From Alternaria dauci (Eukaryota > Ascomycota > Dothideomycetes > Pleosporales > Pleosporaceae), in NCBI RefSeq assembly GCF_042100115.1, contig NC_091278.1:310001-374000 (forward strand): a DNA stretch of 64,000 bases. The letters run 5' to 3'. The notes beneath the pieces are model-generated. The model was not told the DNA's origin. It saw nothing but the letters and a program-made list of their open reading frames with translations, and searched no databases. Positions within the stretch are counted from its first letter, which is position 1; each line of letters begins with the position of its first letter. Made by a program: the position numbers and the translations under genes. Shown one piece after another: positions 279 to 4,997 of this stretch.

Positions 279-583
279 ATGCACAAGAGCTTGTTCCTTC
301 TCATCGCTTTGGTTGGATTATCGGCGGCAGCCGCTTCTCGTAAGTTTCCTTTCAGCACCGTGATAGGAAAATGACCGTACTAATTGTCGAAGCTGGTGCA
401 GAAGAACCTCATAATGTGAAGAAGCGCGCTACCTATATTGATTTATTCAGAGATGAGGGGCCAGCTCCGGCGCCAGAAGTGGAGGTTGAAGTGAAGGAAA
501 AGAAGCGCGCTACCTACATCGATCTGTTTAAAGACGAGGGCCCCGCACCTGCGCCGGAGCAGGAGGCCGAGAATAAGGAATGA
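279..583 (+). CDS. Secreted repeat precursor peptide (candidate fungal RiPP / Kex2-processed precursor)
   Basis: Two exons, 279-339 and 402-583, encode 80 residues. The intron (340-401) has a GTAAGT donor, a TACTAAT branch site and a CAG acceptor, and the join keeps the frame. Residues 1-20 form a hydrophobic signal peptide ending in an Ala-rich stretch. Two 17-residue repeats follow (residues 30-46 and 57-73), each preceded by Lys-Lys-Arg and starting ATYIDLF, then a charged residue (R or K), then DEGPAPAPE. The spacers and tail are Glu/Lys rich. Ustiloxin- and phomopsin-type precursors share this plan: signal peptide, KR-separated repeats, and a core holding Tyr next to an aliphatic residue. 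The two repeats differ at 12 silent sites but only one residue, so the peptide looks selected. No UstYa-like oxidase or tyrosinase is visible here; the cluster could continue left of the window. A pheromone-like or other Kex2-processed secreted repeat peptide remains possible. The start is the only ATG giving a signal peptide. Confidence 0.75.
419..559 (+). repeat. Tandem core-peptide repeat, two copies
   Basis: Copy 1 (KKR at 419-427, core 428-478) and copy 2 (KKR at 500-508, core 509-559) lie 81 nt (27 codons) apart. Across the 17 core codons I count 12 silent changes and one amino-acid change (Arg to Lys). This is old, conserved duplication rather than a fresh copy. Confidence 0.85.
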
Positions 584-2564: not shown

Positions 2565-3293
2565 TGAGTCTTTTTGGAAAAGGTTTTTGCAGCTCCGCGA
2601 TCGGGCCCAATAGGGGAGCCGAGGTTGTTAGCTCTACTGTGGTGGTAGGCGTGAATTCTGTATGTGGAACGCCCAATCACCTAACAATACCTAATTGCCA
2701 TACAACAGGCCTCCACCAGGAGACCTAAAGGCAACTCTACACTTGTAGAAACGCCAAATCAGTCCTACCCCTAATAAGTAGTGCTCACCTAGTTGGGATT
2801 GGAGGGTGCACGTGACTCTGGGCCCACAAAATAAGCCTCCTGCTAGCCGCCACATGGAGAACTTACTCCTACCACCACAGTAACCCATCACATTGACTCC
2901 CTTCTGAGACTCATCGACACCAACCTGACGCCCATATCAGCGCTACGGGCCGTTTTCCTTGTTCTTAGCCTGGCACGCAGAGCTGAGCAAGATTCCAGAA
3001 ACCGTTATCGGATCCGCATCACAAATAAGGATCGTTCTAGAGACGGACCGAGCGGGATTTGGCGGAAGCGGTGGAGGACGACGATAGAGTACAGGGGTTT
3101 ACAACGTTTGGAACACGTCGTTAATTACTCCGTAGCCCGGCAAGAGGTGCACCGTGAAGATACAGACATGTGCGGTCGCCATGTGGTCCTTGATTGGACA
3201 CGGTTGAGCTAGAGCTTATGTAAGAAGACTTGCGCAGCATTCTTCTGTTACCGACTTTGTGCCTGTTCTCTTTGTCTTGACTGCCCAAGTATC
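2565..3293. other. Intergenic, GT90 to S28 peptidase
   Basis: This 729-bp gap holds a 244-bp MITE-like element (2637-2880, listed separately). I see no coding frame in the rest, which presumably includes the peptidase promoter. Confidence 0.6.
2637..2880. mobile_element. MITE-like element with TA target duplication
   Basis: The ends are an imperfect 31-bp terminal inverted repeat (2637-2667 and 2850-2880, 26 of 31 matches by eye; the outer 13 bp, CTGTGGTGGTAGG, match perfectly). TA lies directly outside each end (2635-2636 and 2881-2882). There is no coding capacity. Short length, inverted ends and TA duplication fit a non-autonomous Tc1/mariner-type element. Copy number elsewhere in the genome is unknown. 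Confidence 0.65.
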
Positions 3294-4997
3294 ATGAAGA
3301 AACTGTTTACCTTGGCAGCGTTCTCTACGCTTACTCGATTTCGGAAGCAGTATGACAAAACTGGGCATGTCGACAATTATCACGGCGAGGACTGGTATGA
3401 CTGCGGTCCTTATGGCGGTGAGCTTTTTCTAGGGATACAGTCCGAAATTCACTCGTTAACATCTCGTCAAGGCTTGGGCTGTACCCAGTCTACGATAGGC
3501 AGTGAACCGCCACAGAAACAGGATTACTACATGAACAGCACTTTCAAACAATTGATAGACCACAGCAACCCAAGTCTCGGAACTTTTGACCAATTCTACT
3601 ACTACGACACGACGTACTGGAAGGGCCCCGGCTCGCCAGTGGTCTTCATTTCGCCTGGGGAAGTGAACGTGTCCATGTACCACAGCTTTCTAACCACGAG
3701 TGCCACGCCAGGAGTCCTGGCTGAGCAGATTGGCGCAGCTACCATTGTTCTCGAACACCGATACTGGGGTACTAGCACACCTTTTAGCAACCTCACGACC
3801 GAAAATTTGAAGTACCTTACTTTTGAGAACAGCATGAAGGATATAACACACTTCGCACGTGAAGTCCAGTTGCCTTTTGCGGCCCAACTGAACGCCAGCA
3901 GCAACGCCAAAGATGTCCCGTGGATAGGCGTAGGCGGTAGCTACTTTGGTGCACTGCTAGCGTGGATTGCAAACCTTGACCCGGGCACTATCTGGGCCTA
4001 CTACGCTTCGAGTGCATCAGTCCAAGCTACTGATAATTATTGGACCTATTTCTCTCCCGTACAGGAAGGCATGCCGAAGAACTGTAGTAAAGATGTCTCT
4101 CTTGTAATCGACCACATGGATAGCATCCTTATCAATGGCTCCAAGGACGAGCAACACGCACTCAAGGCTAAATTTGGTATGCAAGACGTCGCTCACAATG
4201 ACGACTTCATGGCTGCCATGGCACATGGGCCTTATCTCTGGCTGGGCAATCAGTTTTCCTACAACACGGGCTTTTTCACCTTTTGCGATTACGTTGAAAA
4301 CGCTGTAAACGCCACACCTGCCAACCTCCCGTCCGAAGCTGGCGTCGGTCTCGACAAAGCGCTCGAAGGATACGCGAGATGGTGGAAAGAGACCAGACTC
4401 CCAGAGAACTGCGCCTCGTTCCTGTACCCTGATTTCAACAGCACAAACAATACTGACTGCTTCGACACCTACAACGCGAGCTCGCCACTCTTCACTGACA
4501 TGACGATGGACAATGCCATGGCCCGGCAATGGGTCTGGATGACCTGCAATGAGCCCTTTGGAAACTGGAAAGTTGGCGCTCCCCCAGGACATCCATCACT
4601 CGTTTCCCGTCTCATTACGACCGACTACTGGGTTCGCCAGTGCGGACTATATTTCCCCCCTGGGCCGAACGGAGAAACATATGGCATCGCAGAAGGAAGA
4701 ACCGTAGAGCAAGTAAATGCGCGTCTGGGAGGCTGGAACATTACTAATACAAGCCGGCTCATCTACGTCAACGGCGATTTCGATCCGTGGAGAGAAATCA
4801 GTGTTTCGGCGAAAGGGCGGCCTGGAGGTCCGCTGCAGAGCACTGAGCAGGTTCCTGTCGAGGTTGTCCCTGGTGCTGGCCATGTGACTGATTTGTTCAT
4901 GAAGAATGGGGAGGTGAATGCCGGGGTGAAGGAGGTGCAGGATCGAGTGATTAAGCAATTGGTCGCGTGGGTCAAGGAGTGGCCCGAAAAGAAGTAG
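3294..4997 (+). CDS. Serine carboxypeptidase, family S28
   Basis: A 567-residue frame related to S28 enzymes (lysosomal Pro-X carboxypeptidase / DPP7 type), which cleave near prolines in secreted or vacuolar settings. The expected triad is present: Ser216 in GGSYFGAL, Asp497 in NGDFDPW and His530 in GAGHVTD. Typical blocks are SPVVFISPGEVN, VLEHRYWG and YYASSASVQA. There are many NxS/T sites, as in secreted glycoproteins. The N-terminus (MKKLFTLAAFSTLTRF) is only a modest signal peptide. Bases 3418-3471 (54 nt) look like an in-frame intron (GTGAGC donor, CAAG acceptor); removing it gives 549 residues. Position next to a Pro-rich secreted precursor invites the idea that it trims that peptide, but this is inference, since many fungi have stand-alone S28 proteases. 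Confidence 0.88.
   Translation: MKKLFTLAAFSTLTRFRKQYDKTGHVDNYHGEDWYDCGPYGGELFLGIQSEIHSLTSRQGLGCTQSTIGSEPPQKQDYYMNSTFKQLIDHSNPSLGTFDQFYYYDTTYWKGPGSPVVFISPGEVNVSMYHSFLTTSATPGVLAEQIGAATIVLEHRYWGTSTPFSNLTTENLKYLTFENSMKDITHFAREVQLPFAAQLNASSNAKDVPWIGVGGSYFGALLAWIANLDPGTIWAYYASSASVQATDNYWTYFSPVQEGMPKNCSKDVSLVIDHMDSILINGSKDEQHALKAKFGMQDVAHNDDFMAAMAHGPYLWLGNQFSYNTGFFTFCDYVENAVNATPANLPSEAGVGLDKALEGYARWWKETRLPENCASFLYPDFNSTNNTDCFDTYNASSPLFTDMTMDNAMARQWVWMTCNEPFGNWKVGAPPGHPSLVSRLITTDYWVRQCGLYFPPGPNGETYGIAEGRTVEQVNARLGGWNITNTSRLIYVNGDFDPWREISVSAKGRPGGPLQSTEQVPVEVVPGAGHVTDLFMKNGEVNAGVKEVQDRVIKQLVAWVKEWPEKK

Follow-up and report, generated by a model that had tools for sequence, protein, structure and literature searches.

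A putative dikaritin-type RiPP precursor with two Kex2-separated repeats beside an UstYa gene in Alternaria dauci

Introduction

Close to the left end of a 64,000-nt stretch of the Alternaria dauci genome (contig NC_091278.1, here C7, positions 310,001 to 374,000; hereafter the window) lies a small gene for a putative secreted protein that contains nearly the same peptide twice. This raises the question whether the gene encodes the precursor of a cyclic peptide and which of the neighbouring genes may act on it. The dikaritin route is described in reviews as secretion, Kex2 cleavage, cross-linking by UstYa-type enzymes and trimming (PMC9233826, PMC6514808). An older definition of the class comprised five genes, including a tyrosinase, a methyltransferase and a transporter or peptidase; under a definition from 2021, UstYa/DUF3328 with two HXXHC motifs is the class-defining enzyme and a tyrosinase is not demanded (PMC12048977). 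In a survey of 7878 Kex2 repeat precursors, 1758 had DUF3328 genes nearby, and Tyr was present in 65.6% of the repeats of this group compared to 38.2% of the other repeats (PMC7329392). A sequence-only reading of the window had proposed a dikaritin-type precursor, and this proposal is supported by an UstYa gene nearby and by related precursors.

Structure of the precursor gene

The features of the gene, in window coordinates, are as follows.

279-583, + strand: precursor gene, two exons, small putative secreted repeat protein with a putative signal peptide followed by two 17-residue repeats
279-339, + strand: exon 1 with the start codon, encoding the putative signal peptide MHKSLFLLIALVGLSAAAAS (hydrophobic N-terminus judged by inspection)
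340-392, + strand: intron, GTAAGT...AAG, alternative acceptor at 401
393-583, + strand: exon 2, carrying both repeats, stop codon 581-583
419-427, + strand: Kex2-type site KKR ahead of repeat 1
428-478, + strand: repeat 1 ATYIDLFRDEGPAPAPE, 17 residues, starting ATYIDLF
500-508, + strand: Kex2-type site KKR ahead of repeat 2
509-559, + strand: repeat 2 ATYIDLFKDEGPAPAPE, 17 residues, starting ATYIDLF

The earlier description of a (putative) signal peptide and two 17-residue repeats, each placed after KKR and each starting with ATYIDLF, is borne out by the sequence, in which positions 419-499 and 500-580 form a tandem pair with a unit of 81 nt and 74% identity. The specificity of Kex2 is well established and is the basis for calling the KKR sites Kex2-type. 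With its N-terminal hydrophobic segment and a KKR site before each repeat, the protein has the defining architecture of KEPs (PMC6339444, PMC7329392) and is a KEP-type precursor with a repeated core. The repeats end in PAPAP and are followed by an acidic linker; the unmodified peptide would have the form ATYIDLF[RK]DEGPAPAPE.

Both possible acceptors of the intron keep the frame. Splicing at 401, as assumed in the sequence-only reading (intron 340-401), yields a precursor of 80 aa, and splicing at 392 yields MHKSLFLLIALVGLSAAAASPGAEEPHNVKKR-ATYIDLFRDEGPAPAPE-VEVEVKEKKR-ATYIDLFKDEGPAPAPE-QEAENKE with 83 aa. Because the latter form is identical in 83 of 83 residues to the annotated A. dauci protein ACET3X_007275 (P0001), the intron more likely spans 340-392. 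The precursor P0003 from Alternaria sp. RS040 has the same splice pattern (...ATAS-PDAEEP...) as the 392 form.

Conservation of the repeat

Between the 17 codons of the two repeats (428-478 versus 509-559), 13 bases differ. Twelve of these differences, in 11 codons, are silent and one exchanges Arg for Lys, while the KKR codons are identical between the two units. The divergence had been described as silent only, which is slightly too strong in view of the Arg/Lys exchange; the 12 silent bases and the notion of selection on the peptide stand. When 13 changes were placed randomly on the first copy, none of 100,000 trials gave one or no amino-acid change (minimum 3, mean 8.3), which rules out a chance repeat. 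Three of the seven residues are changed in the linker following each repeat, and the constraint is therefore confined to the repeat: the repeat is conserved at the protein level and this constraint ends at the repeat boundary.

A degenerate pattern of the core matched twice in the whole genome (34.9 Mb, 10 contigs), both times at this locus, and the reversed pattern did not match at all. Among 4,176 stop-to-stop open reading frames (ORFs) from 231 kb, a set that includes overlapping copies of the precursor locus, only the precursor gene reached 9/10 when scored for a 10-mer that recurs behind a dibasic site. The runner-up with 8/10, on contig C6 (L037:5786-6127), was rejected because it is a tandem repeat of AT-rich DNA.

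A protein search with the precursor returned five proteins at E ≤ 0.1 among 76 candidates (P0001-P0005), so that the related precursor anticipated in sister species was indeed found, P0003 being from Alternaria sp. RS040. P0001 may be A. dauci itself; identical to the protein encoded in the window, it was excluded from the independent relatives. The four further precursors (P0002-P0005) share the repeat [AD][TS]YID[LG]F, and all precursors contain two or more repeats, with three in P0002. The window and P0002-P0005 together provided 11 repeat copies for comparison, the incomplete third repeat of P0005 being left out. Y3, I4, D5, F7 and D9 are invariant in all 11 copies, residue 2 is T in ten copies and S in one, and PAPAP is retained in 10 of 11. 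Position 6 is G in P0004. The consensus over the 11 copies is [AD][TS]YID[LG]F[KRN]D[ES]GPAPAP[ED], with two departures, both in P0003, one copy of which has V instead of G and the other a divergent end. In P0003, moreover, the site ahead of the first repeat reads KKC rather than KKR and the C-terminus is divergent, which suggests that the gene may be decaying in Alternaria sp. RS040 or that its gene model is wrong. A tblastn search of a plasmid collection and a search of viral contigs with one degenerate pattern gave no matches, as expected for a fungal gene.

Genes to the left of the precursor

Two genes located directly left of the window may be relevant for the fate of the peptide.

About C7:307300-308307, - strand: UstYa gene (PF11807), start and splicing assigned by eye
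C7:308951-309619, + strand: divergent double-HXXHC gene, 222 aa, between the UstYa gene and the precursor

The sequence-only reading would have given up the dikaritin proposal if no oxidase gene had turned up in a range of about 30 kb. The UstYa gene is situated ~2 kb left of the start codon of the precursor. With the PF11807 profile, 18 matches were obtained in the 34.9 Mb of the genome, a mean of about one in every 1.9 Mb; this very gene gave the best of them (E 2.1e-33, C7:307525-308166). Its main exon alone matches PF11807 with E 2.9e-32 and 112.8 bits at a cut-off of 25 bits, and the protein contains the two HXXHC motifs HNIHC and HTKHC, as the newer definition of the class demands of an adjacent UstYa/DUF3328 protein. 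Fourteen relatives were found among 132 candidates; four of them, including proteins from A. triticimaculans and Pseudocercospora eumusae, share 55-86% identity with it across 76-100% of its length. Other Alternaria also carry relatives of both the UstYa protein and the divergent double-HXXHC protein. No solved structure related to UstYa by sequence was found at E ≤ 1.

The double-HXXHC gene ends about 660 bp ahead of the precursor and diverges from the UstYa gene at a shared gap of 0.64 kb; the precursor and the two genes downstream of it follow on the same + strand. The encoded protein has the motifs HVAHC and HIRHC and, in its AlphaFold2 model, a helix at residues 43-74 that resembles a TM helix, so that it combines the features of the UstYa family, a (predicted) TM helix and two HXXHC motifs. 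It does not match PF11807, and its relatives P0008 and P0011 likewise stay below the gathering score. A profile alignment with hhalign linked it to UstYa over the HXXHC stretch only (E 2.6e-4, probability 42%). Six relatives were detected among 301 candidates, including proteins from Alternaria ventricosa and Colletotrichum cereale, and the A. dauci genome has weak similarity at seven further places. Six paralogues at these places have HXXHC motifs, and four of these give weak PF11807 matches that stay under the cut-off (E 5.4e-5 to 0.033); the ORF at the seventh place, C6:2665634 (+), has no HXXHC. An alignment of 12 proteins, comprising the double-HXXHC protein, five of the six relatives and six of the seven paralogues (P0010 and C6:2665634 were left out), has ten invariant columns: C83, C95, W104, C109, H165, H168, C169, H195, H198 and C199. 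Since the six paralogues were chosen from ORFs listed for having an HXXHC motif, the constancy of the motifs is partly due to selection; three of the invariant residues, C83, C95 and C109, are Cys outside of the motifs. AlphaFold2 modelling gave two structures of modest confidence (mean pLDDT 64.5 and 65.4), neither of which had a PDB match at E ≤ 0.001, and the structure comparison therefore contributed nothing. Judged from these sequence comparisons, the double-HXXHC protein is likely related to UstYa.

One paralogue on contig C4 is accompanied by a P450-like ORF and an acyltransferase-like ORF (both assigned by eye) as well as an UstYa gene with a PF11807 match, and another on C6 adjoins an NRPS condensation-like ORF and an ABC transporter (functions again assigned by eye). 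With two paralogues in such biosynthetic-looking loci, this family, which is missed by Pfam at its cut-off, could serve as a marker for clusters of this kind.

The earlier suggestion to look for tyrosinase and methyltransferase genes led to none at this locus. PF00264 had 35 matches genome-wide, of which the only one on this contig (C7:2647336) is about 2.3 Mb away from the precursor. No methyltransferase, transporter or P450 was found above the cut-off among 20 ORF stretches scanned, a selection over C7:275337-328578, and no S41 peptidase among the ORFs scanned around the precursor. A SET match about 8 kb left of the precursor was below the threshold (E 0.0015). The more distant ORFs matched a phosphatase with BRCT, Rad54, FRQ and an amidase; SET and F-box matches were sub-threshold. 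Two fungal transcription factors are located about 12 kb away, one on either side of the locus. The ORF C7:304024-304896, which has no Pfam match, is rich in Ser, Pro and Thr; with an N-terminus that looks like a signal peptide and a hydrophobic C-terminus, it resembles a GPI-anchored cell-wall protein. Elsewhere in the genome, UstYa and tyrosinase matches are a few kb apart at two places (C2:154635-157901 and C2:4212755-4217020); this gene pair is also seen in ustiloxin and phomopsin clusters.

Genes to the right of the precursor

Two further genes follow the precursor inside the window.

723-2564, + strand: GT90 glycosyltransferase-like gene, exons 723-1419, 1479-2162 and 2215-2564 by inspection
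3294-4997, + strand: S28 peptidase gene (PF05577), homologue of Aspergillus niger prolyl endoprotease

The GT90 gene starts 140 bp downstream of the precursor and encodes a protein of 576 aa with an N-terminal hydrophobic segment. It matches PF05686 with E 1.9e-19 and 70.3 bits (cut-off 24), and among solved structures, protein O-glucosyltransferase 2, Rumi and protein O-glucosyltransferase 1 come nearest, with significant similarity restricted to residues 436-563. GT90 is not rare in this genome, with 10 exon matches at about seven places.

The first ATG of the S28 ORF is at 3294, but the N-terminal start and splicing are uncertain and the sequence is conserved from about 3540. The protein matches PF05577 with E 3.2e-42 and the A. 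niger prolyl endoprotease 8b57 with E 4.7e-158 over residues 110-590 of ORF 3213-4994. By eye, GGSY, DPW and GH stretches align between the S28 protein and 8b57, and we take the catalytic Ser, Asp and His to lie in these stretches. The genome carries S28 genes at five places, counted from 10 exon matches. From position only, in one genome and with the co-location noticed after the fact, the GT90 and S28 genes are candidate members of the precursor cluster. Between them, an inverted repeat (2635-2667 / 2850-2882; 33 nt, 85% complementary, 182 nt apart) could be the remnant of a small transposon.

Discussion

We consider it quite probable that the gene codes for the repeat precursor, processed by Kex2, of a dikaritin-type RiPP with an UstYa-type oxidase as neighbour. 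By analogy with the known systems, the product is probably a small cyclic peptide that is secreted by the fungus and might act as a toxin, antimicrobial or signal. The signal peptide would carry the precursor into the ER, and cleavage after KKR by Kex2 is expected to release two peptides beginning with ATYIDLF. The membrane-anchored UstYa-type oxidase, possibly assisted by the double-HXXHC protein, would then cross-link side chains of the core, a step suggested by the gene neighbourhood and by reviews that describe knockouts and expression of UstYa-family genes for the pathways to ustiloxin and asperipin. The acidic linker and the PAPAP tail would finally be trimmed, for which the adjacent S28 prolyl endoprotease is a plausible, less firmly founded candidate, and it may be speculated that GT90 O-glycosylates the conserved Thr/Ser2.

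Since residue 6 is G in P0004, Tyr3, Ile4, Asp5, Phe7 and Asp9 remain as constant candidate side chains for the cross-link, which would most likely connect Tyr3 with a neighbouring side chain, e.g. that of Ile4 or Phe7. A role of Phe7 is possible because victorin, in a class whose known cores include cyclic nonapeptides, has a Phe-Leu link (PMC9233826). The Tyr-Ile pair had been regarded as compatible with dikaritins, and both residues are indeed invariant, but they are directly adjacent (Y-I), whereas the EDYXI repeats of ustiloxin and phomopsin have the spacing Y-x-I (PMC6339444). The cross-link pattern can therefore not be transferred from ustiloxin or phomopsin.

With ustiloxin B, phomopsin, asperipin-2a, victorin and the epichloecyclins, the locus shares a (here putative) signal peptide, Kex2-separated repeats, an adjacent UstYa/DUF3328 gene and a Tyr in the repeat. 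It differs from them in having only two repeats, no tyrosinase near, no methyltransferase or S41 gene among the ORFs scanned and GT90 and S28 genes at its flank. The conserved peptidase in known dikaritin clusters is S41 (PMC6514808); measured against the older definition, the S28 gene at 3294-4997 provides the peptidase and the cluster has no tyrosinase. The lack of a tyrosinase nearby is shared with the asperipin-2a cluster, which consists of genes for the precursor, one UstYa homologue, a transporter and a reductase and whose core FYYTGY differs from ATYIDLF (PMC6514808). The core TYIDLF had seemed unfamiliar from the start. TYIDLF, TYIDGF, YIDLFKDEGP and YIDLFRDEGP were all absent from the literature searched, although an unnamed listing in the supplementary tables of the KEP surveys (PMC6339444, PMC7329392) is possible. 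To our knowledge, ATYIDLF is none of the other known dikaritin cores. Most likely, the gene represents a new precursor of the dikaritin type with its oxidase, a known kind with over a thousand predicted.

The gene may alternatively be a real precursor whose product is shaped mainly by GT90 and S28, being processed by the prolyl protease, O-glycosylated or both, with UstYa as one step among several. This fits the close homology of the S28 protein, from one of five S28 places, to a prolyl endoprotease and the ending GPAPAP[ED] of the repeats, as well as the resemblance of GT90 to protein O-glucosyltransferases and the T or S at position 2 of 11 out of 11 copies. Nevertheless, we consider it rather unlikely, as the co-location was seen post hoc in a single genome, the S28 gene may simply code for a digestive protease of the usual secreted kind, and GT90 is not a rare family, with significant similarity here over a limited stretch. 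A specific pathway, in which Kex2 sets the N-terminus, UstYa cross-links Tyr3, GT90 O-glycosylates Thr/Ser2 and S28 releases the peptide or closes it head-to-tail at proline, appears decidedly doubtful to us. If true, it would combine three chemistries that were not encountered together in the literature searched. Its product would be a glycosylated dikaritin, and the pathway would be one for Kex2 repeats that includes a prolyl protease of its own; the same searches brought up neither.

Improbable as well is a plain Kex2-processed, secreted linear peptide, i.e. a signal or small effector, with the UstYa gene as an accidental neighbour. Of the 7878 Kex2 repeat precursors surveyed, the majority, 6120, lack a DUF3328 gene in their vicinity (PMC7329392). 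The conserved repeat is acidic and, at 17 aa, longer than the known cyclic cores. These cores have 4 to 9 residues. An accident is, however, difficult to reconcile with the rarity of PF11807, the best of whose 18 matches is located here, with the second double-HXXHC gene in between, and with a Tyr3 that is invariant in all 11 copies.

We regard a non-functional origin, as chance ORF or decayed remnant, as very improbable: the gene is small with only two repeats and P0003 looks partly degraded, but 12 of 13 base differences between the repeats are silent, random placement never did as well, and the same residues are retained by the precursors from other records. That the gene encodes an alpha-type mating pheromone precursor, which would have the same plan of signal peptide, two repeats and KR sites, is hardly conceivable on sequence grounds and was rejected, because the pheromone motif PYG[LM]P[IV]G of Pleosporales (PMC6339444) is missing from the repeats, a separate ORF of 92 aa at C8:1243058 has two PYGLPI repeats with KR/RR sites, and almost no pheromone precursor in the survey had a DUF3328 neighbour (PMC7329392). 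The ORF at C8:1243058 (L038:1348-1626) is likely the alpha-pheromone precursor of A. dauci, a distinct gene; the DNA pattern for PYG[LM]P[IV]G matched once in the genome, a count that proves nothing by itself because the reversed control also gave one match per strand.

In a survey of 187 Pleosporaceae genomes, three RiPP families were distinguished, two of them exclusive to Alternaria, and family 1 was present in 97.7% of 86 genomes of section Alternaria and 40.9% of 22 other Alternaria genomes (PMC12278603, Table 3). The precursor locus could belong to one of these families, e.g. family 1; the accessible text of that survey gives no precursor or product name for them. In a paper on the secondary metabolism of A. 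dauci (PMC9114375), the terms RiPP, UstYa and DUF3328 do not occur. Venturia inaequalis has nine dikaritin clusters, and four of its precursor genes peak in mid to late infection (PMC9632046).

Only five dikaritins had been reported by 2022 (PMC10512285), compared to 1758 precursors predicted beside DUF3328 genes (PMC7329392). The locus, with up to five genes and a conserved core, is a compact candidate. Alternaria includes crop pathogens, and the repeat is short enough for chemical synthesis, with exact masses computed for its detection. For ATYIDLF, the calculated [M+H]+ is 842.429 in linear form, 840.414 after loss of 2H and 838.398 after loss of 4H; the -2H forms of ATYIDLFKDEGP and ATYIDLFRDEGP are expected at 1366.653 and 1394.659, respectively, and glycosylation would add 162.053 for a hexose or 132.042 for a pentose. 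If GT90 or the prolyl endoprotease acts on the peptide, the chemistry of fungal RiPPs would be widened.
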